From: Herbidospora cretacea
Lineage (GTDB): Bacteria > Actinomycetota > Actinomycetes > Streptosporangiales > Streptosporangiaceae
Direction of reading: 5' to 3'
DNA length: 64,000 nt
NCBI RefSeq assembly: GCF_001570605.1
Contig: NZ_BBXG01000004.1
Span: forward strand, 372,001 to 436,000
Positions 7,975 to 64,000 of this stretch are shown here, one piece after another. Positions within the stretch are counted from its first letter, which is position 1; each line of letters opens with the position of its first letter. A program made the translations under genes and the position numbers. The notes beneath the pieces are model-generated. The model had not been told where the DNA came from, did not search any database, and saw only the letters and a list, made by a program, of their open reading frames with translations.

Positions 7975-7980
7975 CCGTCC

Positions 7981-9331: not shown

Positions 9332-10133
9332 CCACCTCGGCGCCCTCCTGGACGGACGACCCGAGCCCGACCTGCCCCACCTGGACGCGATCGTCGAATG
9401 CGGCGCGAAGGTGCTGGCCCGCAGCGGCGACGGCGACGTCCACTTCGGTGGGCGCTCGGCCGACAGCGTCTTCGACGTGCTCTCGGGCGCGCTGTCGGCC
9501 ACCGGCCGCCCTGACCGGGTCCGCCTGCTGCCCTTCTCCGCCCCCCGGCCGGGGACCCTCGTCCCGCACGAGATCCGCCAGCTCCGCGCGAACATGACCG
9601 CCCTGGGGCTCACCCCCCACGCGCTGGCCCGGCGCAGGACCCCGTACGTGCTGGCCGACCTCGTCGACTCCGGCGCCACCTTCACCCACCTGTACGGCCT
9701 CCTCCGCGACTGGACCGCCGACGAGCGCGAGTCGTGGGACGTGATCCGCCTCAAGCTGCGCTTCCTCGGCATCACCGGCCGCGAGAAGACCAGCCCCAAG
9801 ACGCGGCGCTGGTGGCAGAACGCCGATTGGACGGCCGAACTGCCCCGCCGCAACGTCACCAACGTGTCCGTCGACTGGGGGACCTGGTGCTACCTGGGCA
9901 ACAGCCAGCGCAAACTGACCGCCTCGTTCCGGCACGACCGCTGGGCCAGCGCGTCGGTCACCGTGCCCACCCATGACGACTGGACCCTCGACGCGCTCGC
10001 GGAGGCCGTCGCCTTCGTCGAACGGGGGCGCACCGGCGAGGTGCGGGAGCGGATCGCCCGGCATATGTCGAAGGAGCCGTCGTTCGCCGAGCCGTGGGCG
10101 CGGTCGCTGGCCCTCGCGCTACGGCGTCGCTGA
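9276..10133 (+). CDS. Conserved-looking cytoplasmic protein, function unknown
   Basis: 285 residues, soluble, no signal peptide, rich in Arg and Trp. I do not recognise it with confidence. A segment around residues 50-75 (HFGGRSADSVFDVLSGAL) faintly recalls phosphoribosyltransferase-associated proteins of stress operons, but that is not enough for a call. It starts inside the 3' end of the membrane-protein gene with no clear ribosome site, so it is likely coupled to it; an in-frame ATG at 9285 is an alternative start. Confidence 0.6.
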   Translation: MAGMPTPNLPFRWDLIRRDHLGALLDGRPEPDLPHLDAIVECGAKVLARSGDGDVHFGGRSADSVFDVLSGALSATGRPDRVRLLPFSAPRPGTLVPHEIRQLRANMTALGLTPHALARRRTPYVLADLVDSGATFTHLYGLLRDWTADERESWDVIRLKLRFLGITGREKTSPKTRRWWQNADWTAELPRRNVTNVSVDWGTWCYLGNSQRKLTASFRHDRWASASVTVPTHDDWTLDALAEAVAFVERGRTGEVRERIARHMSKEPSFAEPWARSLALALRRR

Positions 10134-44380: not shown

Positions 44381-45664
<1,284 letters not shown>

Positions 45665-48173: not shown

Positions 48174-48938
48174 GTGGCAGAGGAAACCGACCATGTGGTC
48201 AAGAGTCCCCCTACGACGGCCGTCTACCGGCCCGGATACGAGGTCGCGGCGGAGCAGGTGCTTGAGCTGATCACCCAGTTGCGCCTGCGGCCGGGTGATC
48301 GCCTGCCGACGGAGATCGAACTGGCGCAGCGCCTGGGCACCAGCCGCACGGTCGTCCGCGAGGCGGTGAAGATACTTTCGGCGCTCGGCCGGGTGCGGGC
48401 GCACAAGGGAAGGGGGCTCTACGTGGCCGACGACGAGGGCATGCTGGGCGCGGGCCGATGGACCCCCTATTTCCTCCCCACGGACCTCGACCACGTCTAC
48501 ATGCTCTTCGAGTTCCGGCGCACCCAGGAGATGGAGACCAGCCGCCTGGCCGCCCGCAGGGCCACGCCCGCCGAGCTCCACGAGATCGACAAGGCCGCCG
48601 GCGTCTGCCGCCACGGGTTCGAGACCGGGCGCGAGGACCTGTTCATCGAGGGCGACGACGGCTTCCACACCGCCATCGCCACCGCCTCGCACAACATGTT
48701 CCTCCAGGTGGCCGTCCGGGAGGCGCGACGGCTCCAGGCCCAGTCGAACATCATCGGGCTGGCGGGCTCGATCGGCGGCCACGCCGCCAAGGCGGTCGAG
48801 GAGCACGAGGCGATCTTCCGGGCCATCCGCGTCGGCGACGCCGAGGCGGCGGCCGAGGCCGCGGCGGCCCACATAGACAACACCCTGGAGGACTACCGCC
48901 TGGGGATCCAGCAGCGCATCTTCTCGTCCACCGACTGA
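48174..48938 (+). CDS. GntR regulator, FadR subfamily (first of two)
   Basis: 254 residues: winged helix-turn-helix (about 20-85, LPTEIELAQRLGTSRTVVREAV) and an all-helical FCD domain (about 105-245) with DDGFHTAI and EEHEAIF plus AAHID, placing the Asp and His residues that bind a metal in this family. FadR-type regulators commonly sense sugar acids or hydroxy acids. It is followed 21 bp later by larE and probably co-transcribed. A dyad with the GTnnnAC core of this family precedes the ABC operon (49826-49840), and a related one lies at 60073. Confidence 0.85.
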   Translation: MAEETDHVVKSPPTTAVYRPGYEVAAEQVLELITQLRLRPGDRLPTEIELAQRLGTSRTVVREAVKILSALGRVRAHKGRGLYVADDEGMLGAGRWTPYFLPTDLDHVYMLFEFRRTQEMETSRLAARRATPAELHEIDKAAGVCRHGFETGREDLFIEGDDGFHTAIATASHNMFLQVAVREARRLQAQSNIIGLAGSIGGHAAKAVEEHEAIFRAIRVGDAEAAAEAAAAHIDNTLEDYRLGIQQRIFSSTD

Positions 48939-48959
48939 TCCCCCACCCGAGGAGTCCCC

Positions 48960-49775
48960 ATGAACGAGGCGATGCACCGGCTCAGTGAGCGGCTGAGTGA
49001 CCGGCTGCGGCAGGAGAGCGCCCTCGTGGTCGCCTATTCGGGCGGCGCCGACTCCGCGCTCCTGGCCGTCGTGGCGACCCGGGTGCTGGGCCGCCGCGCG
49101 GTGGCCGCGACCGCCGTCTCGCCCAGCCTGGCCGCCTCGGAGGCGGCGGCGGCCCGCGCGCTGGCCAGGGAGCACGGCCTCACCCACGTCGAGATCCCCA
49201 CCCACGAGGGCGAGAACGGCGCCTACGTCGCGAACGGGGCCGACCGCTGCTACCACTGCAAGTCGGCGCTCTTCGACTCCTTCGCCCCGCTGGCGGAGGC
49301 CCTCGGGGCGCGCATCGCCCTGGGCACCAACCTCGACGACCTCGGCGACCACCGGCCGGGCCAGCGCGCGGCGGCCGAACGCGGCGCCGTCGCCCCGCTC
49401 GTGGACGCCGGGCTGACCAAGGCCGACGTCCGCGCGCTCAGCCGCGACCTCGGCCTGCGGACCGCCGACAAGCCCGCCGCGCCCTGCCTGGCCTCCCGGG
49501 TGACCTACGGCGACCCCGTCACGCCGGAAATCCTGCGCCGCGTCGAGGTCGCCGAGCAGGCCCTGCGCGATCTCGGCTTCGCCGTCTGCCGGGTCCGCGC
49601 GCACTCCCAGGGCGCGCTCGCCCGGGTCGAGGTGCCGCGGGCCGACATCTCCAGGGCCGCCGGGCTCCGGGACGAGATCGACGCCTCCGTGCGCGCGGCC
49701 GGATTCGCCTTCTGCTCGCTCGACCTGTCCGGATTCGCCTCCGGACGGCTCAACGCGCTTCTGCCGCTCCTGTAG
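48960..49775 (+). CDS. larE: LarE, ATP-dependent sacrificial sulfur insertase
   Basis: 271 residues. The PP-loop AYSGGADSALL (about 25-35) adenylates the substrate carboxylate; DRCYHCKSALF (95-105) is a LarE hallmark; KPAAPCLASR places a cysteine at position 176, the same number as the sulfur-donating cysteine of Lactiplantibacillus plantarum LarE. LarE converts the two carboxylates of pyridinium dicarboxylate mononucleotide to thiocarboxylates by giving up its own cysteine sulfur. GAGGAG ribosome site. Separated from larABC by the transporter and dehydratase genes, but without any other lar set in view they must work together. Confidence 0.92.
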   Translation: MNEAMHRLSERLSDRLRQESALVVAYSGGADSALLAVVATRVLGRRAVAATAVSPSLAASEAAAARALAREHGLTHVEIPTHEGENGAYVANGADRCYHCKSALFDSFAPLAEALGARIALGTNLDDLGDHRPGQRAAAERGAVAPLVDAGLTKADVRALSRDLGLRTADKPAAPCLASRVTYGDPVTPEILRRVEVAEQALRDLGFAVCRVRAHSQGALARVEVPRADISRAAGLRDEIDASVRAAGFAFCSLDLSGFASGRLNALLPLL

Positions 49776-49824
49776 GGCCTCCTCGCGCCGGACCACGGTT
49801 GCGCATCAACATGTGTACTACTTA

Positions 49825-49853
49825 TTGACGTCAGACGTCATACGAATTACGTT
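49825..49853 (+). promoter_or_regulatory. Promoter and GntR operator of the ABC-lar operon
   Basis: TTGACG (49825-49830) and TACGTT (49848-49853) are 17 bp apart. The perfect 15-bp dyad TGACGTCAGACGTCA (49826-49840) overlaps the -35, with the GTCAGAC centre typical of FadR-type GntR sites, so binding would block RNA polymerase. A related sequence lies before the second gntR gene (60073-60087). Confidence 0.65.
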
Positions 49854-49906
49854 CCCCTCACATGGACGGCCGGGCCAGCCGGTCGCCGCCTGGAGAGTGA
49901 ACAACG

Positions 49907-51187
49907 ATGAAGCAGCGAATCCTGTGGTCGGCAGTCACGGTGCTAGCGTTAACCGTTGCCGGCTGCGGCAGTGCCTCGAAGCCCGCGTCGGCGCCTGCCG
50001 AGTCCGGAGCCCCGGCCGCCGCCGCGACCAAGCTCGTGGTCTGGGACTGGAAGTCCGGCGAGCCGTATGCGAAGACGTACATAGAGAAGGCGAAGGCCGA
50101 CTTCGCCAAGAAGCACCCCAACGTGACCGTCGAGTTCGTGCCCCAGCCCTTCGAGCAGTACTACACGCTGCTCGGCACGGCGATCCAGTCCAAGACCGGG
50201 CCCGACGTGATGATGTTCAACGGCGGCGGCCAGATCCGCGACCGCGTCGACGCGCTTCTCCCGATCGACGAGTACGTCGCCGAGGACAAGTCGCGCCTGG
50301 CCGGCTGGGAGGCCTTCGTCAAGGAGGGCAAGACCTACGGCGCACCGGTGACCCTCCAGGGCCACCCGATCTACTACAACAAGGCGCTCTACGAGAAGGC
50401 CGGCATCACCGCCCCCGCCACGACGTGGGACGAGTTCCTCGCCAACTGCGACAAACTCAAGAAGGCCACCGGCGCCGCCTGCTTCGCCCTTGGCAACAAG
50501 GAGGGCATCGGGCCGCAGTTCTGGCTCTCCGGCATGGGCTCGGGCGTCCTGACGCCGGCCGAGTACGACAAGTGGATCGCCGGCGAGCGCGACTGGAAGT
50601 CCCCCCACGTCAAGAAGATCTTCGAGATGTTCAAGGAGACCGGGGACAAGAAGCTCAACAACGAGGGCGCCAACTCCACGGCGATGTTCACCGACATCTT
50701 CTCGGTCTTCAACACCGCCAAGGCCGCCCACATCATCGGCCTGATGTCCGACATCGGTCACTGGAAGGACTTCGGCGAGTTCATCGGCCCCGACAAGGTC
50801 GGCATCATGCTCCCGCCGGTCGTCACCGAAGGGGCCACGCCGAGCCTGCCCTACGACGGCGGCATCGGCTACGCGGTGGCCAAGTGGACGAAGGACCCCA
50901 AGGCCGCGGCCGACCTGGTCCGGTCGCTGACCACCACCGACGCCCTGTCGTCCTTCTCCGCCGAGGCGGGCGCCATCGCGTCCGACACCACCATCTCCGC
51001 GCCGCAGGACGCCCCCGTCGTCGGTGAGATCGTGGCGCAGCTGAAGGCGGGCAAGCCGGCGCTGCACGTCGCGATGGACTCCAAGACCATCGACCTGATG
51101 GGCCGGCTGTCCCAGAAGCTGCTGAGCGGCTCGGCCACCGTCGACGAGGCGGTGGAGGAACTGGCCGCCTCCGACCAGGAGAACTGA
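49907..51187 (+). CDS. Sugar ABC transporter substrate-binding lipoprotein
   Basis: 426 residues. A lipoprotein signal peptide ends LTVAGC, so C20 is lipidated; the mature protein is a family-1 extracellular solute-binding protein (oligosaccharide type), with KLVVWDWKSGEPY at the start and PIYYNKALYEKAGI in the hinge region. It captures mono- or oligosaccharides for the two permeases that follow. Codon 15 is TTA (49949-49951), rare here, and that stretch (TGCTAGCGTTAACC) also resembles a LacI site. First gene of a roughly 10-kb operon that runs to 60082. Confidence 0.9.
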   Translation: MKQRILWSAVTVLALTVAGCGSASKPASAPAESGAPAAAATKLVVWDWKSGEPYAKTYIEKAKADFAKKHPNVTVEFVPQPFEQYYTLLGTAIQSKTGPDVMMFNGGGQIRDRVDALLPIDEYVAEDKSRLAGWEAFVKEGKTYGAPVTLQGHPIYYNKALYEKAGITAPATTWDEFLANCDKLKKATGAACFALGNKEGIGPQFWLSGMGSGVLTPAEYDKWIAGERDWKSPHVKKIFEMFKETGDKKLNNEGANSTAMFTDIFSVFNTAKAAHIIGLMSDIGHWKDFGEFIGPDKVGIMLPPVVTEGATPSLPYDGGIGYAVAKWTKDPKAAADLVRSLTTTDALSSFSAEAGAIASDTTISAPQDAPVVGEIVAQLKAGKPALHVAMDSKTIDLMGRLSQKLLSGSATVDEAVEELAASDQEN

Positions 51188-51191
51188 GCCG

Positions 51192-52157
51192 GTGCCGACG
51201 AAGAACACTTCACCGGCGGTCCGCCCCACTGAGAGGGGGCGGACCGCCGGGGGAGGTCCGAGAGAAAGGTCGCGCCACGGCGCGGCCCGCCGCAGAGGGC
51301 GTTCCGAACGCTTCGCTCCCTATGTGCTGGTCGCCCCGGCCGTGCTGATCATCGTGGCGCTGCGGCTCTACCCGCTCGCGCTGGGCGTCAACTTCTCCTT
51401 CACCGGAGACGGCGAGGCCAACGGCACGCCGGTCGGCCTGGCCAACTACCTGGAACTGCTGGACGACCCGCTGTTCCAGACCGCGCTGGCCAATGTGGGG
51501 CTGCTGGTGCTGCTCCTGCCGGTCGCCGTCGCGATCCCCGGGCTGCTGGCGACGTTCATCTTCCTGAAGGTGCCGGGCCACCGCATCTTCCGCAGCGTCT
51601 ACTTCTTCCCCGCGGTGCTGTCCCCGGTGATCGTGGGGGCCATCTTCAACCTCATGCTCGCCTTCGACGGACCGCTGAACGAGGTCCTCGGCACGATCGG
51701 CCTGGGCCCGGTCGACTGGCTGGGCGACCCCGGCGTGGCGAAGTTCGCCGTCGTCGGGGTGCAGATCTGGGCGACGTTCGGCATGGCTCTGGTGGTGTTC
51801 CTCGCTGGTTTCGCCACCCTCGACGCCTCGCTGCTCGACGCGGCCCGGGTCGACGGCGCCTCGCTGCGCCAGAGCATCTGGCACGTGATCATCCCGAGCC
51901 TGAGCCAGACGATCCAGTTCGTCTTCGTCACCACGATGATCGGCATGCTGACCTCGATGTTCGGCCTGCTCTACGTGATGACCAGCGGCGGGCCCGAAGG
52001 GTCGACCTACCTGCCGGAGTACTACATCTGGATTCAACAGGGACAGATGAACCGGCCGGCGCTCGCCTCGGCGGCCTCCACGGTCCTGTTCCTCATCATG
52101 CTCGTGGTGGGCCTGCTGCAGATCAGCGTGCTGCGCCGTGCCGGACGGGAGGACTGA
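51192..52157 (+). CDS. Sugar ABC transporter permease, MalF type
   Basis: 321 residues, six membrane helices after a long Arg-rich cytoplasmic start (1-40). The EAA-type loop that docks the ATPase reads DAARVDGASLRQSIWHVIIP. GTG start 4 nt after the binding-protein stop. Partner of the next gene. No ATPase gene follows; a shared MsiK-like ATPase elsewhere in the genome is expected, as in other actinomycetes. Confidence 0.9.
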   Translation: MPTKNTSPAVRPTERGRTAGGGPRERSRHGAARRRGRSERFAPYVLVAPAVLIIVALRLYPLALGVNFSFTGDGEANGTPVGLANYLELLDDPLFQTALANVGLLVLLLPVAVAIPGLLATFIFLKVPGHRIFRSVYFFPAVLSPVIVGAIFNLMLAFDGPLNEVLGTIGLGPVDWLGDPGVAKFAVVGVQIWATFGMALVVFLAGFATLDASLLDAARVDGASLRQSIWHVIIPSLSQTIQFVFVTTMIGMLTSMFGLLYVMTSGGPEGSTYLPEYYIWIQQGQMNRPALASAASTVLFLIMLVVGLLQISVLRRAGRED

Positions 52158-52978
52158 TGCGGCGCCTCGGCAAGTGGGTGGTCGCCGTTCCGATGGCGAT
52201 CCTGGCCCTGGCCACGATCTATCCGCTGATCTTCACCGCCAACGTGGCGATGAAGACCCGGCGTGAGTACGTCCTCGACCGGTTCTCGCTGACCGACTCC
52301 CTCCACTGGGACAACATCGCCACGGCGTGGAACAGCGTCGGCATGGCGCGCTACTTCGCCAACTCGCTCTTCGTGGTGGCGGCGTCGGTGTTCCTGCTGC
52401 TGTGGCTGGGCTCGATGGCGGGCTTCGCGCTGAGCAGGCTGCCGTTCCGGGGGTCGAAGGCCCTGTTCATCGGCTGCCTGGCCGCGCTGTTCATCCCGTT
52501 CCAGGTGATCATGGTGCCGCTCTCGCGGGTCATGGCCGACACCGGCCTCATCGACACCTATCCGGGACTGATCCTCGCCTACGTGGCCCAGTTCCTCCCA
52601 TTCACCGTGTTCCTGATGACCAGCTACTACCGGTCGGTCCCCAGGGAGATCGTGGACGCGGCCCGCATCGACGGCAACACCGTCTACGGCGTCTACCGCC
52701 GGATCATGGTGCCCATCGGCCGGCCCGCGCTGCTGTCGGTCGGCATCCTGGACGCCCTGTTCTGCTGGAACGACGTGCTCATCGCGCTGCTGATGATGCC
52801 GTCGGCCGACCACCGCACGCTCATGGTCGGGGTGACGTCCCTGCGGGGTCAGTACACCGACAACATTCCCACGTTCGCCTCGGGGGTCCTGATCGCCGCC
52901 GTACCCGTCCTGCTGGTCTATCTGTTCCTCCAGCGCCAGATCGCCGACGGTGTCACCGCCGGTTCCACGAAGGGCTGA
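52157..52978 (+). CDS. Sugar ABC transporter permease, MalG type
   Basis: 273 residues with six membrane helices and the EAA loop DAARIDGNTVYGVYRRIMVP. Its ATG overlaps the stop of the MalF-type gene by one base (TGATG). Completes the heterodimeric channel. Confidence 0.9.
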   Translation: MRRLGKWVVAVPMAILALATIYPLIFTANVAMKTRREYVLDRFSLTDSLHWDNIATAWNSVGMARYFANSLFVVAASVFLLLWLGSMAGFALSRLPFRGSKALFIGCLAALFIPFQVIMVPLSRVMADTGLIDTYPGLILAYVAQFLPFTVFLMTSYYRSVPREIVDAARIDGNTVYGVYRRIMVPIGRPALLSVGILDALFCWNDVLIALLMMPSADHRTLMVGVTSLRGQYTDNIPTFASGVLIAAVPVLLVYLFLQRQIADGVTAGSTKG

Positions 52979-52979
52979 C

Positions 52980-54173
52980 ATGCGCATCTCGGGGTATCGC
53001 ACGTTGACCACGATCCAGGAATGGGGACGGCCCGTCGGCGACGCCAACGGCCTGTACGCCGACGGCGTCGTCCCCGTCCCGATCGTCATGGTGGAGACCG
53101 ACATCGGGATCACCGGCGTCGGCATCGGGCCGCACGCGGAGATCGAGTCCATCTTCCCCGCACTCGAAGGGGAGGACCCGCGCGCCGTCACGGCGCTGTA
53201 CGACCGCATGCTCCGGCGCGCCTTCAAGGCGGGCCACGCGGGCGTGGTCTTCGGCACCATCGGGGCGCTCGACACCGCCCTGTGGGACATCAAGGCCAAA
53301 GCGGCGGGCGAACCGCTCTGGCGCCTGCTCGGCGGGAACGACCGGAAGCTGCCCGCCTACGCCTCCGGCCTTGACATCGGCGTCGACGACGACGGGCTCG
53401 TCGCCCTGTACGAGAAGTACGCCGCCCACGGCCTGCGCGCGGCCAAGCTCAAGGGCGGCCTGGACGTCGAGCGCGACCGCCGCCGCCTGACCCTGGTGCG
53501 CGACGTGCTCACCAGCGCCGGCGGCGGGGCCCGGCCGAGCCTGATGCTGGACGCCAACGAGGCGTGGTCCCGCAAACAGGCCGTCCGCTACGTCGCCGAG
53601 CTGGAGCGCACCCTCGACCTGACGTGGATCGAGGAACCGGTCCGGCGCTGGGACGCCGAGGGCCTGGCGGCGGTCGGCAGGGGAGTGCGGGCCGCCGTCG
53701 CCACCGGCGAGAACCTCACGGGCCTGGAGCAGTTCCGCCCGCTGCTGGCCGCCGGGGCGGTCGACATCGTCCAGACGGCGGCGGTGTGGGGGGTCTCCCA
53801 CTTCCTCCGGGTGGCGCTGCTCGCCCACGCCCACGACCTGCCGGTCAGCCCGATCGGCACCACCCTGGTCCCGCTGCTGCACGCCGCGACGGCGGTGCCG
53901 AACCACATGGCCAGCGAGCTCCAGGACCTCCATCCGCCCGTCGGCCTGTCGGTCGACACGTCGGTGGAGGACGGCGCCTTCATCCTGGGCGACGAGCCGG
54001 GGGCCGGGATCTCGATCGACGAGGAGGCGATCACGGCGATCATCGGCCGGCCGGGCACCCGGTCGGCGGACAGCCCCGCCGTCCGGCCGGCCAGGGCCGG
54101 TCTGCGCCTGCTGGCCGAGGCCCACGGCCCGCACCTGAACTCCTCGCTCATGGACCTGCACCACAACCGCTGA
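52980..54173 (+). CDS. Enolase-superfamily sugar-acid dehydratase-like protein lacking the usual His
   Basis: 397 residues. The capping domain (about 1-125) is followed by the (beta/alpha)7beta barrel with KxK base motif AAKLKGG (K156, K158) and metal ligands D191 (MLDANEAW), E218 (WIEEPV) and E244 (ATGEN). D262 in VDIVQ matches the aspartate of the mandelate-racemase Asp-His pair, but the expected His about 27 residues on is absent (PVSPIGTT, residues 288-295). This fits an acid-sugar dehydratase or related enzyme using mainly the Lys side. In this operon, beside a fuconolactonase-like gene, L-fuconate or a relative is the likely substrate. The ATG is 1 nt after the permease stop. Confidence 0.8.
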   Translation: MRISGYRTLTTIQEWGRPVGDANGLYADGVVPVPIVMVETDIGITGVGIGPHAEIESIFPALEGEDPRAVTALYDRMLRRAFKAGHAGVVFGTIGALDTALWDIKAKAAGEPLWRLLGGNDRKLPAYASGLDIGVDDDGLVALYEKYAAHGLRAAKLKGGLDVERDRRRLTLVRDVLTSAGGGARPSLMLDANEAWSRKQAVRYVAELERTLDLTWIEEPVRRWDAEGLAAVGRGVRAAVATGENLTGLEQFRPLLAAGAVDIVQTAAVWGVSHFLRVALLAHAHDLPVSPIGTTLVPLLHAATAVPNHMASELQDLHPPVGLSVDTSVEDGAFILGDEPGAGISIDEEAITAIIGRPGTRSADSPAVRPARAGLRLLAEAHGPHLNSSLMDLHHNR

Positions 54174-54204
54174 GCGTTCCGCGTGCAGGAAGAAAGGAAC
54201 CACC

Positions 54205-56202
54205 GTGTCTCCCCCTCCCATGTCCCGCGTCCCGTCGTTCGTGGTCGCGCCCACCGGGGCCGCGGACGCCGACGACAACGGGCCGGGCAGCCGGGACAAG
54301 CCACTGGCCACGCCGGCGGAGGCGCAGCGGCGCGTCCGCGCGGCCGTCGCGAGGGGTGAGGGCGACGTGACGGTCGAGCTCCTCGACGGGGTCCACCGGC
54401 TGACCGCGCCGCTGCGCCTGGACGCCGCCGACTCCGGCCGTGACGGCGCGACGGTGACCTGGGCGGCGGCGCCCGGAGCCAGGCCGGTGATCAGCGGGGC
54501 CGTCCCCGTCACCGGCTGGGAGCCCGACGAGTCGGATCCCGGTGTCCACAAGGCCCAGGTGGGCACCGGGTTCGACACCCGCCAGCTCTACGTCGACGGG
54601 AAGCTCGCCCGGCGCGCCCGGCTCCGGCTGGCCCGCACCGACATCACGCTGACCGCGACCGGCTTCACCCTCGACAACCCCGCCCTGGCCCACCTGGCCG
54701 GCCTGCCCGACCAGAGGCGCATCGAGTTCCAGGCGATGCTGGCGTTCACCAACCGGTTCTCCCCGGTGGAGAGCATCACCGGGTCCACGGTCGTGATGCG
54801 GCAGCCGGGCTGGGACAACAACACCTACGGCTACGACACCGTCCAGGCGCCGATGCGCGCCCCGGCGTACTTCCTGCTCAACTCCAGGAGCTTCCTCGAC
54901 GAGGCGGGCGAGTGGTATCTCGACACCACCGCCGGGGTGCTCTATTACAAGCCGCTTCCCGGCCAGGACATGGCGCGGGCTCGGGTCGAGCTGCCGAGGC
55001 TGGAGTCCCTGCTCCAGATCGGCGGCACCTACGACGCCCCGGCCCGCAACCTGCGTGTCGAGGGGCTCACGTTCAGCGGCACCTCCTGGCTCCACCCCAG
55101 CTCCTCCGACGGGTACGCCAACCAGCAGACCGGCGTGTTCATCAGCGGCGTCCAGGAGCACCGCCCCGCCGACGCCTTCGACTCGTGCAGGCTCGGCGGC
55201 CGGGGCTTCGAGGGGTCGCGGAACGGCTGGCACCAGTCGCCCTCGGCGGTCCAGGTGTCGGCGGCCGAGGACGTCGCCATCGCCGGCAGCACCTTCGTCA
55301 ATCTGGGCTCCATGGCGCTCGGCATCGGCAACGACGCCAACGCCCACGCCACCGGCGTCGGGCTCGGCGCGCGCCGGGTGTCGGTGACGGGGTGCACGTT
55401 CACCGCGAGCGCCGGCGGCGGGATCATGATCGGCGGGGTGCGCCCCGACGCGCACCACCCCGCGGATCCCCGCATGGTCAACAGCGACATCGCGCTCCGC
55501 GACAACCGCGTTCACGCGACCGCGCTCGAATACCTCGACCACGCGGGCGTCTTCGCCAGCTATGTCACCCGCCTGACCGTCGAGCACAACTACGTGGCCG
55601 ACCTGCCCTACACCGGCATCGCGGTCGGCTACGGCTGGGGCGCCAACGACCCGGGCGGCAACCCCGAGTACGTCACCCGGGGCCTGTACGACTTCCAGCC
55701 CGTCTACGAGACGCCGACCACGCTGAGTGACGTGCGCATCGTGGGCAACCACGTGCGCGACGTCGTGCGGACCCTCGCCGCCGCGAGCTCCATCTACTTC
55801 CTGTCGGCCATGCCGCGCAGCGTCGTCGAGGAGAACTACTGCGAGGGCAGCGGCCACTACGGGCTCTACTTCGACGAGGCCGCCCGCCACCTGAGCGTCA
55901 GCCGCAACGTGTTCGCCCGCACCGCCGGGCCGTGGGCCCACGCCAACAACCAGAACGGCAACCCCACCGGGGACCTCACCCTGGTCGGCAACTACGTCAC
56001 CAACCCCGACATCACCGGCATCAGCGACGGCAGCCGGGGCAACGTGGTGCGCGGGAACATCACCGTCGCCGAGGCCGACCTGCCGCTGGAGGCCGGCCGG
56101 ATCGTCAACCGGGCCGGTCCCCGGGGCGCGCCCGACCCGGAGCGGCCCGCCGTGGGCGCCGTCCTCACCGCCGAGCGAAAGGAGGGCCGGCGTGCGCGTT
56201 GA
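54205..56202 (+). CDS. Cytoplasmic GH141-like beta-helix enzyme
   Basis: 665 residues, paralogous to the secreted protein at 45708 over its whole beta-helix (DGVHRLTAPLRLDAADSG, ISGAVPVTGW, GVGLGARRVSVTGC, AVGYGWGANDPGG, GLYFDEAARH) but without signal peptide and without CBM13. It therefore should act inside the cell, presumably on oligosaccharides brought in by the ABC transporter. GH141 includes alpha-L-fucosidase activity; that would supply L-fucose to the downstream enzymes. GTG 54205 follows AGAAAGGA; an ATG at 54220 is possible. It overlaps larA by 11 nt. Confidence 0.72.
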   Translation: MSPPPMSRVPSFVVAPTGAADADDNGPGSRDKPLATPAEAQRRVRAAVARGEGDVTVELLDGVHRLTAPLRLDAADSGRDGATVTWAAAPGARPVISGAVPVTGWEPDESDPGVHKAQVGTGFDTRQLYVDGKLARRARLRLARTDITLTATGFTLDNPALAHLAGLPDQRRIEFQAMLAFTNRFSPVESITGSTVVMRQPGWDNNTYGYDTVQAPMRAPAYFLLNSRSFLDEAGEWYLDTTAGVLYYKPLPGQDMARARVELPRLESLLQIGGTYDAPARNLRVEGLTFSGTSWLHPSSSDGYANQQTGVFISGVQEHRPADAFDSCRLGGRGFEGSRNGWHQSPSAVQVSAAEDVAIAGSTFVNLGSMALGIGNDANAHATGVGLGARRVSVTGCTFTASAGGGIMIGGVRPDAHHPADPRMVNSDIALRDNRVHATALEYLDHAGVFASYVTRLTVEHNYVADLPYTGIAVGYGWGANDPGGNPEYVTRGLYDFQPVYETPTTLSDVRIVGNHVRDVVRTLAAASSIYFLSAMPRSVVEENYCEGSGHYGLYFDEAARHLSVSRNVFARTAGPWAHANNQNGNPTGDLTLVGNYVTNPDITGISDGSRGNVVRGNITVAEADLPLEAGRIVNRAGPRGAPDPERPAVGAVLTAERKEGRRAR

Positions 56203-57448: not shown

Positions 57449-57450
57449 CC

Positions 57451-58104
57451 GTGGACCTCGGATACGCGCGGGTGGACCTCGCCCGGCAGGCGCGGCAGGG
57501 AGTGCCGGAGATCGTCTACGGGCCGGGCAAGAAGGCGAGCGAGATCGCCGGGATCGTGCGCGTCCTGCTCGACCGCAACGACGGCCCCGTCCTGGTGACC
57601 CGGACCGGGCCGGGCACCGCCGCCGGCGTGCTCGCGCACGTCTCCGGCGGCGCCTACGACCTCGACGCCCGGCTGATCGTGTGGCGTCCGGCAGCGCCGC
57701 TCGGGCACACCGTCGCCGTGGTGACGGCCGGCACCGCCGACGGCCCGGTGGCCGCCGAGGCCGCCGCCGTCGCGACCGCCCTCGGCCTGACCGTGACCCT
57801 GGTCAGGGACGTGGGGGTGGCAGGCATCCACCGGGTGCTCGCCGAGACCGAGACGCTCCGCGACGCCGACAGCGTCATCGTCGTCGCGGGGATGGAGGGC
57901 GCGCTGGCCAGCGTCGTGGGCGGGCTGGTCGAGACGCCGGTCATCGCGGTCCCCACGTCCACCGGTTACGGCGCGGCCCTCGAAGGGGTGACGGCGCTGC
58001 TCGCGATGCTGACCTCCTGCGCGGCGGGGATCACCGTGGTCAACATCGACTCGGGGTTCGGCGCCGCGCTCGCCGCCTACCGGCTCACCAGGCGGACGCG
58101 ATGA
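57451..58104 (+). CDS. larB: LarB, nickel-pincer cofactor carboxylase/hydrolase
   Basis: 217 residues, related to PurE. VYGPGKK at the start of the core, VVTAGTADGPVAAEA, VAGMEGALASVVGG and VPTSTGYGA are LarB signatures, and SCAAGITVVNIDSGFGA includes the conserved cysteine that attacks the pyridinium ring. LarB carboxylates nicotinic acid adenine dinucleotide at C5 and releases AMP, the first step of cofactor synthesis. GTG start 3 nt after larA; overlaps larC by ATGA. Confidence 0.93.
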   Translation: MDLGYARVDLARQARQGVPEIVYGPGKKASEIAGIVRVLLDRNDGPVLVTRTGPGTAAGVLAHVSGGAYDLDARLIVWRPAAPLGHTVAVVTAGTADGPVAAEAAAVATALGLTVTLVRDVGVAGIHRVLAETETLRDADSVIVVAGMEGALASVVGGLVETPVIAVPTSTGYGAALEGVTALLAMLTSCAAGITVVNIDSGFGAALAAYRLTRRTR

Positions 58105-59216
58105 TCCTCTACCTCAACCCGTTCACCGGCCTGGCCGGGGACATGCTGCTCGCCGCGCTGCTGTCGGCCGGCGCCTCACCGGACACCGTCCGGCGGGCCG
58201 TCGCCCGGACCGGCCTGACCGGCTGGCGCCTGGAGATCGAGGACGTCCGCACCGGCCCCCTCATGGCCGTGCGCGTCCGGGTCGAGGTCGACGACGACGC
58301 GACCGAACGCCCGGCCTCCACCCTGATCGCGATGGCCGCCCGCACCGGACTGACCGTCGCCGAAGAGGCGCTGAAGGCCATCGCGGAGGTGGAGGGCGCG
58401 CTGCACGGCGTGCCCGCAGACGACGTCCACCTGCACGAACTGGGCGGGCACGACACGCTCGTCGACATCGTGGGCTGCGCCGCCGCGCTCGCCGACCTCG
58501 GGGTCACCCAGGTGTACTGCGCGCCGCTGCCCCTGGGCAGCGGCAGCGTCGAGACCCGCCACGGCGTGCTCCCGGTGCCCGCGCCCGCCACGCTCGCCCT
58601 GCTCCGGGGCGCGAAGGTGCGCGGCGGCGGCGACCAGGAGGCGGTCACCCCCACCGCCGCCGCCTTGCTGCGCGCCGCCGGCACCCTCTACGGCGCGGCC
58701 CCGCCCATGGAGCTGCACGCCGTCGGCTACGGGGCCGGCACCCGCCGCCTGGCCGACCGCCCCAACGTCACGGTGGCCATGCTGGGCGACCCCGTCGCCT
58801 CGCCGGATCAGCAGGTCGTGCTGTCGACCAACCTCGACGACGTCACGGGCGAGGTCCTCGGGCACGTCATCCAGCGCGCCCTCCAGTCGGGGGCCGCCGA
58901 CGCGTGGGTCACCCCCGCGATCATGAAGAAGGGCCGCCCGGCCCACGTCCTGCACGTGCTCGCCCCCGTCGACCTGGCCGACCAGCTGGAGAACCTCCTG
59001 TTCGCCGAGACCGGCACCCTCGGGCTGCGCCGCACGGCGGTGGAGAAGGTCGCGCTTCCCCGGACCGTCCGGACGGTCGAGCTCTACGGCCAGAGCGTGC
59101 GGATGAAACAGGGCCCGGGGGGCGTCAAACCCGAGTACGACGACCTGGCCCGCCTGGCCGCCCTGACCGGAAAACCCCTGCGGATCCTGACCCGAGAGGC
59201 CCTCGACGCCCTATGA
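58101..59216 (+). CDS. larC: LarC, CTP-dependent nickel insertion cyclometallase
   Basis: 371 residues in one uninterrupted frame. N-terminal half begins YLNPFTGLAGDMLLAALL and contains VHLHELGGHDTLVDIVG; C-terminal half has TNLDDVTGEVLGHVI and the conserved PAIMKKGRPAHVL CTP-binding region. LarC inserts nickel into the dithiocarboxylated nucleotide. In L. plantarum this protein needs a programmed frameshift (larC1/larC2); here no shift is needed. Overlaps both neighbours by ATGA. No nickel transporter gene is nearby. Confidence 0.93.
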   Translation: MILYLNPFTGLAGDMLLAALLSAGASPDTVRRAVARTGLTGWRLEIEDVRTGPLMAVRVRVEVDDDATERPASTLIAMAARTGLTVAEEALKAIAEVEGALHGVPADDVHLHELGGHDTLVDIVGCAAALADLGVTQVYCAPLPLGSGSVETRHGVLPVPAPATLALLRGAKVRGGGDQEAVTPTAAALLRAAGTLYGAAPPMELHAVGYGAGTRRLADRPNVTVAMLGDPVASPDQQVVLSTNLDDVTGEVLGHVIQRALQSGAADAWVTPAIMKKGRPAHVLHVLAPVDLADQLENLLFAETGTLGLRRTAVEKVALPRTVRTVELYGQSVRMKQGPGGVKPEYDDLARLAALTGKPLRILTREALDAL

Positions 59217-60082
59217 CCGTCATCGACGCCCACCACCACCTCTGGGACCTGACCAGCCGCGCGCACGACTGGCTCGCGGCACCCGAGGTGCGCCCGATCC
59301 AGCGGGACTTCTCGCCCGCCGACTACGACGCGACCGCCGGTGAGGCGGGGATCAGCCGTTCTGTGCTGGTGCAGGTCCTGGCCGACGCCGACGAGACACG
59401 CGACTTCCTGGCGGTGGCCGCCGCCTCGCAGACCATCGGCGCGGTCGTCGGGTGGGCCGACCTGACCCGCCCCGACCTGCCCAAGGAGCTCGACGCGCTG
59501 CGCGCCTCGCCCGGCGGGGAGCTGCTGCGCGGCATCCGCCACCTGGTCCAGGCCGAACCCGACCCGGCCTGGCTGAGCCGGGACGACGTGCGCGAGGGCC
59601 TGCGCCACGTGGGCGAGGCCGGTCTCGGCTACGACCTGCTGGTGACGCCGGTCCAGCTGCCCGCCGCGATCGACACGGTCCGCGCCCTCCCCGAGGTGAA
59701 CTTCGTCCTCGACCACCTGGCCAAACCCCCGATCGAGTCGGGGCGGCTGCAGCCGTGGGCCGACCTGCTCGGTACGCTGGCCGCCGAGCCGAACGTGACC
59801 GCCAAGCTGTCGGGCATGATCACCGAGGCCGGATGGACCACCTGGGACGCCGCCGCCCTGCGCCCCTACGTCGACGTCGCCCTTGAGGCGTTCGGCCCGG
59901 CGCGGCTGATGTTCGGCTCCGACTGGCCCGTCTGTCTCCTGGCCGGCACCCTTCCGGCCTGGACGGACACGGCGAGGACGCTGCTCGCGGACGCCGGTCT
60001 GTCGGCGGCGGACCAGGCCGAGATCCTCAGCGGGACGGCGACCAGAGTGTATCGCATGACACAGGAGTCATATGACGTCTGA
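59213..60082 (+). CDS. Amidohydrolase-2 family sugar lactonase (L-fuconolactonase-like)
   Basis: 289 residues, TIM barrel of the COG3618 lactonase group: IDAHHHLWD at the start, GIRHLVQAEPDPAWL, DHLAKPP, AKLSGM and FGSDWPVCLLA. The group hydrolyses sugar lactones such as L-fucono- and L-rhamnono-lactone, often without tight metal need. Its ATG overlaps the larC stop (ATGA), so it is part of the same transcript as larABC and the dehydratase. It supplies the open-chain sugar acid for the dehydratase or for LarA. The exact sugar is inferred from the fucosidase neighbours. Confidence 0.85.
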   Translation: MTVIDAHHHLWDLTSRAHDWLAAPEVRPIQRDFSPADYDATAGEAGISRSVLVQVLADADETRDFLAVAAASQTIGAVVGWADLTRPDLPKELDALRASPGGELLRGIRHLVQAEPDPAWLSRDDVREGLRHVGEAGLGYDLLVTPVQLPAAIDTVRALPEVNFVLDHLAKPPIESGRLQPWADLLGTLAAEPNVTAKLSGMITEAGWTTWDAAALRPYVDVALEAFGPARLMFGSDWPVCLLAGTLPAWTDTARTLLADAGLSAADQAEILSGTATRVYRMTQESYDV

Positions 60083-60087
60083 TGTAT
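60073..60087. promoter_or_regulatory. GntR-type operator at the second gntR promoter
   Basis: TGACGTCTGATGTAT matches the reverse of the 49826 site in its left ten bases and keeps a GTCTGAT centre. It ends 10 bp before a -10 box TACACT (60098-60103) and so overlaps the -35 position of the gntR gene at 60146, suggesting autoregulation and a shared regulon with the ABC-lar operon. Confidence 0.5.
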
Positions 60088-60145
60088 GCCGATCGTTTAC
60101 ACTGGCCGCAGAGCCGCGCGCTGGCTGCGGTCATCTGGAGGGGAC

Positions 60146-60916
60146 ATGTCGGCATCTCAAGAGGCGCTTCTGAACGCCACCCCGTCCCCGGCGTGGACGA
60201 AACGGCCCGCCAACCTGGCCAGGGCCCTGACCGGCGAACTGGTCGACCGCATCGTCCGCGGTGTCCATCCTCCCGGAACCCCGCTGCCCCCGGAACCGGC
60301 GCTCTGCGAGACGTTCTCGGTCAGCCGCACCGTGGTTCGGGAGGCGGTGAAGGTCCTCCAGGAGAAGGGCCTGGTCCAGGTCCGTCAGGGCAGCGGCACG
60401 ATCGTCACCCCTCCGACCGAGTGGAACATGCTCGACGAGCTCGTCCTCAACGCGACCATCGCGCAGGACGACGGCATCGTGGTCCTCGACGACCTGGTCG
60501 TCACCCGGCGGCTGCTGGAGTCGGACATGGCCCACGTCGCCGCCCGGGTCGCCACCGAGGAGACCGTCGAGCGGCTACACGCCCTGGTCGACCGCATGGA
60601 CGAACTCGTCGCCGACCCCGCCGCCTACGCCGACTACGACCGCGCCTTCCACGACACCATCATGCAGGCCTCCGGCAACCGGATCGCGCGGGCGGTCGTC
60701 CGCTCCCTGGAGAGCCAGGTGATCAACACCGCTCGCTACATGGGCCGAACGGAACGGTCCCTTTGCGTGGCCTCCAACCTGGGCCACCGCCGCATCTTCG
60801 AGCGCATCGCCGGACGCGACCCCTCGGGCGCCTCCGAGGCGATGTTCACCCACATCACCGAGGCGTGGCTGGTCCGCCGCACCGGCTCCAGCGAGGCTCC
60901 CCGCCTCCAGCGCTGA
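60146..60916 (+). CDS. GntR regulator, FadR subfamily (second of two)
   Basis: 256 residues: winged helix-turn-helix (about 20-85, LPPEPALCETFSVSRTVVREAV) and FCD domain (about 110-240) with DRAFHDTI and FTHITEAW. The ATG at 60146 has TGGAGGGG 2-9 nt upstream; a frame open further upstream would run through the operator and promoter and is rejected. It is only weakly like the first GntR (48174), so the pair may respond to different ligands. Likely target: the dyads at 49826 and 60073. Confidence 0.85.
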   Translation: MSASQEALLNATPSPAWTKRPANLARALTGELVDRIVRGVHPPGTPLPPEPALCETFSVSRTVVREAVKVLQEKGLVQVRQGSGTIVTPPTEWNMLDELVLNATIAQDDGIVVLDDLVVTRRLLESDMAHVAARVATEETVERLHALVDRMDELVADPAAYADYDRAFHDTIMQASGNRIARAVVRSLESQVINTARYMGRTERSLCVASNLGHRRIFERIAGRDPSGASEAMFTHITEAWLVRRTGSSEAPRLQR

Positions 60917-60960
60917 AAACCTTTGCCTGAGGTATCGGGGAAGCGGACATTTCGGGGGGA

Positions 60961-60982
60961 ATCTCTCTGATCTTGGAGAGAT
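60961..60982. promoter_or_regulatory. Small stem-loop upstream of sodC
   Basis: ATCTCTC (60961-60967) and GAGAGAT (60976-60982) with an 8-nt loop in the 87-bp gap between gntR and sodC. It may be a terminator for gntR, an operator or a leader hairpin for sodC; no T-run. Confidence 0.35.
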
Positions 60983-61003
60983 CGCCACCTGGGGAGACCG
61001 CTG

Positions 61004-61609
61004 ATGCCGTCCAACGCCCGTCTGACCGTGATCGTCCCGCTGGCCGTGGGCGCCGTCATGATCGGTGCTTCCGCGCTGGGAGCCATGAAGCTGGGGCAGG
61101 GCGGCCGGGGCCCGGCCGGCGCCGTGATCAAGGACGTCGAGGGCCGTGCGGTCGGCACCCTCCAGGTGGAGGACGCCGGTGACGGCAAGTCCAAGGTCAC
61201 GGTCTCGGTGACCGGCCTCCCGGCCGGGTACCACGGCTTCCACGTGCACGCCAAGGGCGTCTGCGACCCGCTGTCGAAGGACCCCGCCACGGGTAGCGCC
61301 TTCTTCAGCGCGGGGGGCCACTTCGACCTCGGCTCACACGTGCACGACCACCACACCGGCGACCTGCCCAACCTGCTGGTCGCCGCGGACGGCACCGGAA
61401 CCGCCTCGGCCGTGACCGACCGGTTCCGGGTCGCCCAGCTGTTCGACGCCGACGGCAGCTCGATCATGATCCACGCGCTGGCCGACAACCACTCCAACAT
61501 CCCCGGCCGCTACCAGAACCAGGCGGGCGTGAAGGGCCCCGACGCCGAGACGCTGAAGGCGGGCGACTCCGGTGGCCGCCTCGCCTGCGGCGTGATCACC
61601 AAGGGCTAG
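61004..61609 (+). CDS. sodC: Exported or membrane-anchored Cu/Zn superoxide dismutase
   Basis: 201 residues. An N-terminal hydrophobic segment (about 8-30) directs it across the membrane. The dismutase fold has copper ligands in FHVHAKG, a bridging histidine in GGHFDLG, zinc ligands in HVHDHHTGDLPN and the last copper ligand in IHALADNH; two cysteines (GVCDP, LACGV) form the usual disulfide. It detoxifies superoxide outside the membrane. Co-directional with gntR but with its own leader; converges on the GH95 gene 9 bp away. Link to the sugar pathway is uncertain. Confidence 0.92.
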   Translation: MPSNARLTVIVPLAVGAVMIGASALGAMKLGQGGRGPAGAVIKDVEGRAVGTLQVEDAGDGKSKVTVSVTGLPAGYHGFHVHAKGVCDPLSKDPATGSAFFSAGGHFDLGSHVHDHHTGDLPNLLVAADGTGTASAVTDRFRVAQLFDADGSSIMIHALADNHSNIPGRYQNQAGVKGPDAETLKAGDSGGRLACGVITKG

Positions 61610-61618
61610 ACCGTCAGG

Positions 61619-64000
61619 TCAGACGCCCGTGATGGTCCATTGGTTGTTGGCGTTGGCGTTGGGCGCCCACATCCCCACCGTGGACCCGGCGGTGGCGTTG
61701 CCCATGCCGTCGAGGGCGGTGCCGGTGCCCCGGTTGATGATCTGGTTGCGACCGTTGGAGGCCGCGGCCAGCCGCCACTGCTGGTTGTTGCTCCCGTTCC
61801 AGGCGGACTGGCGGGCGGGGGCGCCGTTGGCGGTGTTGCCGTAGCTGTCGATCACCATGCCGTTGGTGCGGTTGACGATGCGGTACCACCCGCTCCCCAG
61901 GTCGACCAGCTGCCAGTGCAGGTTGGTCGAGCCGTCGGAGGCGCTCCACTGCTTGACGTTGGAGCCGGAGGCGACGTTGCCGCCGCTGTCCAGCGCCAGG
62001 CCGGTGGTCCCGTTGGTGATCCGCACATAGGTCGGGGTCGGGTTCGTCGAGCCCGTCCCGGTGAGGCGGTAGGTGCGCCCGGCCGCGCCGGTGATCTGGA
62101 CGACGTCCGACTCGGGCTTGGTGAAGGTGACCGCCCCGCCCGTCCCGGTGTCGACCACCTGGACGGTGCCGGTGAAGACCGCGTTCCGGACCTTCACCGT
62201 GCCGTCGCGGTCGGGCGTCACCAGGATCTCGGTGGCCTTGCCGGAGCTCCACGTCGTGCCGACGGTGTAGCCGCCGCGTCCGCGCAGCCCGGCCACCTTG
62301 CCGGCGGACCAGGCGGACGGCAGCGCCGGGAGCACGTGCAGCTCGCCGTTGTGGCTCTGGAGCAGCATCTCGGCGATGCCGGAGGTGGCGCCGAAGTTGC
62401 CGTCGATCTGGAACGGCGGGTGCAGGTCGAACATGTTCGGCGCCAGGCGCGACGTGGTGACCAGCAGGCGCAGCAGCGTGTGGGCGCGCGAGCCCTCCTC
62501 CAGCCTCGCCCAGTAGTTGATCTTCCAGGCGAGGGACCAGCCGGTGCCGTCGTCGCCGCGCAGTTCCAGGGTGCGGCGGGCGGCGGTGTGCAGGGCGGGG
62601 GTGCCGCGCTTGGTGATCTGGTTGCTGGGGTGCAGGCCGTAGAGGTGGGACACGTGCCGGTGGTTGGTCTCGGGCTCGATCCAGTCGTACAGCCATTCCA
62701 TGATGTTGCCGCGCGAGCCGGTCTTCATCGGCGCGAGCCGGTCGCGGGCGGCCAGCACCTGGGTGCGGAAGGAGGCGTCCACGCTGAGGACCTGGCTGGC
62801 CTGGGCGACGCCGTTGAACAGGTCCCGCAGGATCTGGTTGTCCATCGTCGGGCCCGCGCAGACGCTCACCCCGTTGTGGTGGCCCAGCTCGGGGGAGTTC
62901 GACGGGTTGGTGACCAGATAGCCCAGGCTGGGCTCCTGGACCAGGGTGTCGAGGAAGAACTGCGCCGCGCCCTTCATCGCCGGGTAGTAGGTGCGCAGGA
63001 AGTCCAGGTCGCCGGTGAAGGTGTAGTGCTCCCAGATCAGCGTGGACAGCCAGGCCCCGCCCGTCTGCCACATCCCCCAGAACGCGCCGTCGACGACTGA
63101 GGTGGCACGCCAGGCGTCGGTGTTGTGGTGGGTGACCCAGCCGCCGGCGTTGTACTGCACCTGGGCGGTGCGGGCGCCGGTGACCGCGAGGTCGCTGATC
63201 ATCCTGAACACGGGGTCGAAGCACTCCGACAGGTTGGTCGTGTCGGCGTGCCAGTAGTTCATCGGCAGGTTGGCGTTGATCGTGTACTTCGAGTCCCACG
63301 AGGGCGTCAGCGAGTCGTTCCAGATGCCCTGGAGGTTGGCCGGCTGGCTGCCCGGCCGGGACGACGAGATGAGCAGGTAGCGGCCGAACTGGAACAGCAG
63401 CGCCGAGAACTGCGGGTCGTTGACGCTGTTGTGCTGGGCGATCCGCACGTCGGTCGGCTGGTCGGCGGCCGACGTCCGGCCCAGGTCCAGGGTGGTGCGG
63501 TTGAACAGCCGCTGGTAGTCGGCCACGTGGCGCGACCGCAGGTCGTCCCACGACCGGGCGGCGGCGGCGTTGAGGTGGCCCCGCGCGATGCCCTGGTAGT
63601 CGCCGCTGACGTCGCGGTAGTTCTTGTAGCTGGAGCCGATCGAGACCAGCACCGTCACGCTGTTGGCCGACCTGACCTGGAGGGTGCCGCCCGAGCTGCT
63701 GACCGTGCCTCCGTCGGCGACGGCCCGCGCCAGGCCGAGGAAGCGGACCTGGCCGGCGATCCCCTCGAAGTCGCCCGAGACGCCGTCGAGCGCCGCGGTC
63801 GCGCCGTCGGGGCTGGAGCGGGTGACCCGCTGGGGGCTGTCGAACGTCGCGGAGAAGCTGATCGACGCGCCCCGGTCGGCGGTGAGCCGGATGGCGATCA
63901 CCTGGTCGGGCGCGCTGGCGAAGATCTCCCGGCGGTAGTTGATCCCGTTCTGGGTGTAGGTGGTCACGGTGGTGGCCGTGGTCAGGTCCAGATAGCGGTT
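61619..64000 (-). CDS. GH95 alpha-L-fucosidase-type enzyme with CBM13 (N-terminus off the window)
   Basis: 793 residues of the C-terminal part are present; the frame is still open at base 64000 (NRYLDLTTATTVTTY), so the start and signal peptide lie beyond the edge. GH95 marks: NLQGIWNDSLTP, TINANLPMNYW (the Asn pair that activates water), WEHYTFTGDLDFL with the general acid Glu, and FQIDGNFGATSGIAEML with the conserved Asp. Residues 650-793 of this fragment are a beta-trefoil CBM13 (NLHW, NNQQW, NNQW). GH95 enzymes remove terminal alpha-1,2-L-fucose or L-galactose by inversion. Together with the two GH141-like enzymes it points to fucose as the cluster's sugar. Confidence 0.87.
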   Translation of the reverse strand, partial: NRYLDLTTATTVTTYTQNGINYRREIFASAPDQVIAIRLTADRGASISFSATFDSPQRVTRSSPDGATAALDGVSGDFEGIAGQVRFLGLARAVADGGTVSSSGGTLQVRSANSVTVLVSIGSSYKNYRDVSGDYQGIARGHLNAAAARSWDDLRSRHVADYQRLFNRTTLDLGRTSAADQPTDVRIAQHNSVNDPQFSALLFQFGRYLLISSSRPGSQPANLQGIWNDSLTPSWDSKYTINANLPMNYWHADTTNLSECFDPVFRMISDLAVTGARTAQVQYNAGGWVTHHNTDAWRATSVVDGAFWGMWQTGGAWLSTLIWEHYTFTGDLDFLRTYYPAMKGAAQFFLDTLVQEPSLGYLVTNPSNSPELGHHNGVSVCAGPTMDNQILRDLFNGVAQASQVLSVDASFRTQVLAARDRLAPMKTGSRGNIMEWLYDWIEPETNHRHVSHLYGLHPSNQITKRGTPALHTAARRTLELRGDDGTGWSLAWKINYWARLEEGSRAHTLLRLLVTTSRLAPNMFDLHPPFQIDGNFGATSGIAEMLLQSHNGELHVLPALPSAWSAGKVAGLRGRGGYTVGTTWSSGKATEILVTPDRDGTVKVRNAVFTGTVQVVDTGTGGAVTFTKPESDVVQITGAAGRTYRLTGTGSTNPTPTYVRITNGTTGLALDSGGNVASGSNVKQWSASDGSTNLHWQLVDLGSGWYRIVNRTNGMVIDSYGNTANGAPARQSAWNGSNNQQWRLAAASNGRNQIINRGTGTALDGMGNATAGSTVGMWAPNANANNQWTITGV

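Follow-up and report, generated by a model that had tools for sequence, protein, structure and literature searches.

Why would a putative fucoside operon carry the genes of a nickel-pincer racemase? The question is raised by a 64,000-nucleotide stretch of DNA (the window; G000:C4:372001-436000) from the 8.28 Mb genome of the soil actinomycete Herbidospora cretacea, in which positions 49907-60916 encode, in this order, the substrate-binding protein (SBP) and two permeases of a sugar ABC transporter, an enolase-superfamily protein, a GH141 glycoside hydrolase, LarA, LarB, LarC, a lactonase and the regulator GntR2. A gntR1-larE pair on the forward strand lies just upstream, and sodC and a GH95 gene lie downstream. 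Since all genes from SBP (49907) to gntR2 (60916) reside on one strand, the forward strand, and are separated by 1-31 bases or overlap, they apparently form one operon. An earlier note on this DNA had named these genes in this order, and profile matches find all of them as stated. It had also proposed that fucoside breakdown is coupled to LarA and its nickel-pincer nucleotide (NPN) cofactor, with L-fuconate or related aldonates as LarA substrates. The coupling is supported by an operator shared in sister species and by larA genes that stand next to genes of the route-3 L-fucose pathway elsewhere, while the aldonate substrate conflicts with the active-site signature of LarA. We therefore favor, with a probability of roughly 0.6, a scenario in which a fucoside operon (for sugars of the L-fucose/L-galactose type) has taken over a nickel-pincer racemase, such that LarA would invert the acid released at the end of the pathway. 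Gene content, LarA type, the shared operator and the repeated linkage are read directly from the sequence.

The strongest evidence that LarA would serve the fucoside operon, which makes this assignment well supported at the sequence level, is the shared operator. The palindrome TGACGTCAGACGTCA (49826-49840) upstream of SBP overlaps a promoter-like pair, TTGACG-17-TACGTT (49825-49853, forward strand), and recurs exactly in Herbidospora mongoliensis. The operator-bearing DNA TGACGTCAGACGTCATACGA is a candidate target of GntR1 or GntR2; a GntR protein presumably binds it, GntR2 being the more likely by position. In the five sister genomes G001-G005 the palindrome occurs at 23 sites with at most one mismatch, 15 of which mark three units that recur in every genome: the SBP operon, a lone GH141 gene and an FAH-SDR-larABC unit. 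In all five of these species the lar genes are unlinked from the SBP operon, and a 25-bp promoter/operator block is nevertheless common to FAH-SDR-larABC, the SBP-enolase-GH141-lactonase operon and the lone GH141. Alignment of 17 sites gives the block as TTGACGTMAGACGTCATACGAATTA, with a single base differing in the G002 lar site. The exact 20-bp core TGACGTNNGACGTCATACGA is found at 12 sites in 394 genomes (none for the reversed control): nine SBP promoters of enolase operons, one divergence between SBP and gntR2 in G130, on the contig that continues the broken G130 operon, and two further sites in G003, in front of the lone GH141 and FAH-SDR-larABC. For the palindrome, the reversed control yields 0 or 1 site per genome in the 12 genomes searched, and twenty single-base shuffles of the window give a mean of 0.35 matches at two mismatches. 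The H. cretacea genome has one exact site, that of the window, and four with one mismatch, and H. mongoliensis has the SBP site, a pair of sites without a reference-set gene and three further sites. Operator-like palindromes without an adjoining reference-set pathway gene lie at L197 8232 and at L207 7750 and 7791 (G003, G006). The GntR-box pattern TNGT..ACNA was not present in the window promoters scanned.

What type of enzyme is this LarA? Its gene (56192-57448), the single larA found in the genome, matches NF033504 at 528 bits (cut-off 460). In an alignment with L. plantarum LarA, the catalytic residues His108 and His174 and the NPN residues Arg75, Lys184 and His200 are kept, and positions 175, 176, 358 and 359 are Phe, Phe, Trp and Gln (F,F,W,Q). 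Lactate racemases carry F, F, W and E or Q at these positions and gluconate epimerases E, V, A and H, according to PMC11770544. The E,V,A,H signature of the D-gluconate 2-epimerase (GntE) group is absent from the window protein, and gluconate-type proteins match it weakly (NF052594, 20.8 bits; 4nar, 28.6 bits). Thus, the F,F,W,Q residues constitute evidence against a sugar-acid epimerase and point to the lactate/glycerate racemase type (LAR group of the LarA superfamily), without separating lactate from glycerate. LarAH43, which has Gln359, is reported to act on glycerate with a kcat/KM of 114,000 per M per s and on lactate with 83,000 per M per s (PMC11770544). Among 97 distinct LarA homologues aligned, the catalytic and NPN-binding positions examined are invariant in all 97, and the specificity residues are F,F,W,Q in 94, F,F,W,E in two and M,F,W,Q in one. 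The NPN biosynthesis set is complete, each member exceeding its NCBIfam cut-off: larB (57451-58104; NF033503, 253 bits, cut-off 175), larC with its LarC1 and LarC2 parts in a single frame (58107-59216; TIGR00299, 161.5 bits, cut-off 90; NF052512, 126.8 bits, cut-off 50) and larE, for the sulfur insertase (48960-49775; TIGR00268, 301 bits, cut-off 150). LarE displays the motifs SGGADS and CYHC and one later Cys, and is hence of the CXXC-C type. An open reading frame opposite larA (cluster 14) was rejected as a gene, being a shadow frame.

The linkage of larA to fucose genes recurs outside the genus. We considered the best 80 of at least 174 larA relatives, with larA positions taken from tblastn since composition-based gene calls got some larA frames wrong. 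The 34 closest loci with flanks among the matches listed (L025-L058) are all from Actinomycetota by record title. Genes for FAH (at least 69% identity to the query) lie near larA in 14 of them and genes for the L-fuconate dehydratase FucD (at least 59%) in 13; one or both are present in 16 of the 34, and a lactonase gene in 12. L036 and L044 are the query sources, hence their self-matches of 100%. The 16 FAH/FucD-linked loci belong to Streptosporangiaceae, Pseudonocardiaceae and one Streptomyces. Of the 46 remaining loci (L059-L104), a single one, from Chloroflexota (L079), encodes FucD (61%), SDR (44%), FAH (44%) and LarA (61%) in a row, and it falls outside the actinobacterial group on a LarA tree. 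On this quick tree of 96 of the 97 distinct sequences, in which the fucose label was assigned from gene linkage and the count excluded 22 rows, namely those of short loci and of the window, the 22 fucose-linked rows need five changes versus about 19 in shuffles, a contrast inflated by near-copies. The Lentzea locus L044 unites SDR, AKR, FAH, lactonase, larA, larB, larC and larE, with a glycerate kinase gene (Pfam, 411 bits) standing between larA and larB, along with the window-type enolase (74%), SBP (67%), permease (79%) and gntR2 (69%). In Saccharothrix (L032) the order is GH95-lactonase-larA-gntR1, with no larB, larC or larE within the fetched stretch. Two Kribbella larA loci (L035 and L041) have a window-type enolase (58%) and GH127-like genes, and no FAH or FucD gene near larA. 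Farther afield, of seven larA loci from Bacillota, five contain glycerate kinase homologues (L097, L098, L100, L103 and L104; at about 7.5-8.8 kb), L098 also having a KdgT-type permease, which suggests that these F,F,W,Q enzymes are glycerate racemases. In Acidobacteriota, larA of L070 adjoins GlcD- and GlcF-like genes (6316-9994), a context that suggests a link to D-2-hydroxyacid oxidation.

Which steps of a fucose pathway does H. cretacea encode? The route-3 L-fucose pathway, with FucA, FucB, FucC, FucF and FucG, leads to pyruvate and L-lactate (PMC11199699), and elsewhere one AKR is described to take D-arabinose, L-fucose and L-galactose, with an SDR-FAH pair giving lactate from L-KDF (PMC6336799). 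The window locus holds an incomplete set, just the lactonase and the divergent enolase. The earlier note suspected the missing steps just beyond position 64000, yet apart from that enolase no homologue of AKR, SDR, FAH or FucD was found in the window or in the next 17 kb. Instead, contig C11 carries all four side by side with a second lactonase, at about 126.5-131.5 kb, so that dehydrogenase, lactonase, dehydratase, SDR and FAH are all encoded genome-wide. The C11 proteins are 61% (FAH), 66% (FucD), 68% (SDR) and 61% (AKR) identical to the larA-linked proteins of L036/L044, and the second lactonase is 49% identical to that of the window. Among solved structures, the L036/L044 representative of FucD matches L-fuconate dehydratase 1yey (660 bits), that of FAH matches the L-2,4-diketo-3-deoxyrhamnonate hydrolase 8gsr (251 bits), that of AKR reaches up to 128 bits against L-galactose dehydrogenases, and that of SDR has the probable oxidoreductase 4dqx as its first match (180 bits), followed by 8y4j (143 bits), which is an L-KDF dehydrogenase (PMC11199699). 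Two more FucD-like genes lie at G000:C8:159149-160420 and G000:C4:579651-580937. A small open reading frame beside the fucose genes was considered as a mutarotase by its size; this label was dropped because the frame is antisense to the SDR gene wherever both were seen and the scanned members have no Pfam or NCBIfam match.

The window's own dehydratase candidate, enol12 (52980-54173; Pfam MR_MLE_N and MR_MLE_C), shares membership of the enolase superfamily, the K-x-K motif and the metal-ligand positions with FucD of Xanthomonas campestris (1yey), to which it is about 30% identical. However, the Asp and His of the FucD dyad are substituted, in the window protein as in four relatives. It is therefore non-canonical as an L-fuconate dehydratase, and we regard it as a candidate sugar-acid dehydratase. 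For the COG3618-type lactonase (59213-60082; Amidohydro_2, 186 bits), the score against NF052480, the model for L-fucono-1,5-lactonase, is 207 bits and thus below the cut-off of 400; its best solved relative is 4dlf (133 bits). GH141 (54205-56202) scores 30.8 bits on GH141_M (cut-off 27), with BT_1002 (5mqp) as the best solved relative (136.5 bits). The transporter genes comprise SBP (49907-51187; SBP_bac_1, 107 bits) and permeases 1 and 2 (51192-52157 and 52157-52978; both BPD_transp_1).

How did the merged operon arise? The nearest named relative seen, H. mongoliensis (L025, G006), belongs to the same genus, and the merged operon was seen in H. cretacea and H. mongoliensis only, among seven genus members. 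In both, larE lies between gntR1 and SBP, and an insert separates GH141 from the lactonase gene, FAH-larABC in H. mongoliensis and larABC alone in the window; there are thus two insertion points in one operon. The sister species G003, by contrast, has gntR1-SBP-permease-permease-enolase-GH141-lactonase-gntR2 without lar genes, and its larABC follows FAH and SDR on a different contig. In the genus g53, enolase and larA lie on separate contigs (G060, G127, G180, G333) or, in G200, on a single contig at a distance of 5.8 Mb, which makes the merged state look derived. Compared with H. mongoliensis, about 1.8 kb is gone before larA in the window: FAH and the C-terminal NPCBM_assoc/DUF1349 domains of GH141 are missing, as is the GH141 signal peptide, all of which the H. 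mongoliensis locus possesses. The loss of the GH141 C-terminal domains and of FAH is consistent with a single deletion of about 1.8 kb. As judged by eye, no clear signal peptide precedes GH141 of G003, G060 and G200, and one is present in G183, G153 and G142.

How might LarA act in such a pathway? Oligosaccharides would enter through the ABC transporter, and GH141 would free the sugar. AKR, lactonase, dehydratase, SDR and FAH, several of them encoded on the other contig, would then convert it to pyruvate and an L-2-hydroxyacid, namely L-lactate from L-fucose and, as stereochemistry suggests, L-glycerate from L-galactose. LarA, with NPN made by LarB, LarC and LarE, could invert C2 of this acid and provide D-lactate or D-glycerate for D-specific enzymes. 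We infer the substrate, the direction, the GntR protein that binds and every catalytic step of this scheme.

Several observations weigh against this scenario. The window operon lacks FAH and SDR, and the complete FucD cluster on C11 has no operator when searched at two mismatches. Of the 23 sister-species sites, 17 were looked at, and the two beyond the recurring units (G003 C49 and G004 C2:807809) have no reference-set gene. Glycerate kinase was found in one fucose-type larA locus only. Co-occurrence is also modest: in the 394 genomes, which were drawn from the class and for which up to four first-look candidates were scored per genome, 13 encode LarA (E up to 1e-80) and 98 encode FucD (E up to 1e-100), with nine encoding the two together (Fisher p 8e-4), such that LarA accompanies just 9 of 98 FucD-positive and 7 of 25 enolase-positive genomes. 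Since by genus the larA-FucD association is 4/8 (p 0.10), this co-occurrence is weak by itself. Enolases of the window type, on the other hand, are found in 25 genomes, 23 of which are FucD-positive (p 3e-13; by genus 13/14, p 2e-8). Thus, the enolase goes with fucose catabolism, LarA being an optional addition. Finally, racemization of L-lactate is not obviously needed because the genome encodes a LutB-like protein (440 bits, cut-off 444.8) and two LUD-domain stretches. With these and GlcD-like proteins present, we rejected the idea that LarA is needed since the genome cannot oxidize L-lactate.

The case for a racemase is more easily made with L-glycerate than with L-lactate, even though glycerate kinase was seen just once within a fucose-type larA locus. 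In this narrower version, which would be a new route, L-galactose (and L-fucose) derived from side chains of plant cell walls would be oxidized to pyruvate and L-glycerate (or L-lactate), and LarA would act as an L-glycerate racemase that delivers D-glycerate to glycerate kinase, the nickel-dependent last step of a sugar catabolism in actinomycetes. We put this forward tentatively, at odds well short of even. The Gly_kinase family (PF02595), the sole glycerate kinase family sought, has one protein in the genome, encoded outside the operon.

It is also conceivable, albeit doubtful, that LarA serves general lactate metabolism and came into the operon by a chance rearrangement, with no role in a sugar pathway. 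Fucose genes are absent from the surroundings of many close LarA homologues (e.g. L037, L043, L047-L049 and L053-L058), the merged operon was seen in just two of the seven genus members, and the GlcD/GlcF-like neighbors of the Acidobacteriota larA would fit such a role. Against chance placement stand an operator common to unlinked genes in five of five sister species, FAH and SDR sharing a unit with larABC, and a linkage that recurs in a separate Chloroflexota branch. Less probable still is that LarA acts on another small 2-hydroxyacid derived from an unusual glycan sugar, such as a methylated or branched sugar of rhamnogalacturonan-II. GH141, GH95 and GH127 genes cluster here, a mix that resembles rhamnogalacturonan-II degradation, and the Asp-His dyad of FucD is not kept in the window enolase. 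Yet no gene dedicated to a sugar of this kind was found, and the FAH, SDR and AKR homologues match enzymes for L-fucose, L-rhamnose and L-galactose. The idea that LarA acts as a C2 epimerase on L-fuconate or a related aldonate, and so supplies a sugar acid to the lactonase or dehydratase steps, is very improbable: larA does lie between a dehydratase-like gene and the lactonase gene, and the superfamily includes D-gluconate 2-epimerases (PMC7583248) and one broad-spectrum member weakly active on D-mannonate (PMC11770544), but the protein carries F,F,W,Q and not the E,V,A,H of gluconate epimerases, its gluconate-type matches are weak, and larABC of the unlinked sister species stands behind FAH and SDR, the pathway end.

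The regulator genes are gntR1 (48174-48938), of FadR/FCD type with GntR and FCD above their Pfam cut-offs, and gntR2 (60086-60916), whose orthologues adjoin the SBP operator in many relatives, including the divergent pair in G130. Upstream lie a GDSL esterase with a ricin-type lectin domain (44402-45664) and GH141b (45708-48104, forward strand), a secreted paralogue with a ricin-type lectin domain (GH141_M, 29.8 bits, cut-off 27; Ricin_B_lectin) and 47% identity to the operon GH141. Downstream, sodC (61004-61609, forward strand; Sod_Cu, 102.8 bits) is located between the operon and GH95, yet it has no match in the fetched H. mongoliensis locus and so probably does not belong to the system. GH95, also with a ricin-type lectin domain, occupies 61619-64000 on the reverse strand and starts 474 bases beyond the window. 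At full length it clears all three GH95 Pfam cut-offs, its start region is twin-arginine-like by eye, and its T-I-N-x-N and Q-I-D-G-N motifs align with the catalytic Asn/Asn and Asp of XacAfc95, as given in PMC8245568. An attempt to tell fucose from L-galactose preference by the Thr/His position was dropped, since the literature available calls this position non-decisive. The gene next after GH95 is of GH127 type, and GH127, GH81 and GH97 genes past GH95 (L105 3548-18646) make up a wider glycan-degradation region.

If LarA and NPN synthesis indeed form a conserved regulon with the end of an oxidative L-fucose/L-galactose pathway, this would offer a concrete role and candidate substrates for LarA-superfamily enzymes, whose in vivo role is described as an open question (PMC7583248), and some actinomycetes would then be predicted to need nickel when growing on fucosides. 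In a partial survey of open-licence literature, which did not extend to the supplementary gene-context tables of PMC7583248, no title or abstract start joined LarA or NPN with L-fucose/L-galactose catabolism. Neither 'fucon' nor 'lactonase' occurs in the main text of PMC7583248, PMC11770544 or PMC11796402, and in the available part of PMC11851776 fucose figures merely as a crystallization additive and within a reference title. The available parts of two papers on non-phosphorylative fucose pathways (PMC10444878, on SAR202, and PMC12263773) mention no LarA-type racemase.

How does the locus compare with known systems? SBP-permease-permease-enolase-GH141 operons of other Actinomycetota (L158-L170) have orthologous genes and the same operator, but unlike the window they contain no lar gene within the fetched stretches; we know of no characterized member of this operon type. 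Like L. plantarum LarA, the window enzyme retains the residues for catalysis and NPN binding as well as F,F,W at 175/176/358, and it is accompanied by a full cofactor gene set. It differs in having Gln359 where L. plantarum has Thr, resembling in this the tested LarAH43 with its slight glycerate preference, and in that its lar genes lie inside a fucoside operon. The CXXC-C pattern of LarE likewise resembles the [4Fe-4S] LarE proteins, whereas L. plantarum LarE has a single sacrificial cysteine (PMC9283937). Homologues of the route-3 L-fucose pathway are found on C11 and beside larA in relatives. However, no racemase is described after FucG in the available account of that pathway (PMC11199699), whereas here LarA and NPN synthesis appear to be co-regulated with part of it.

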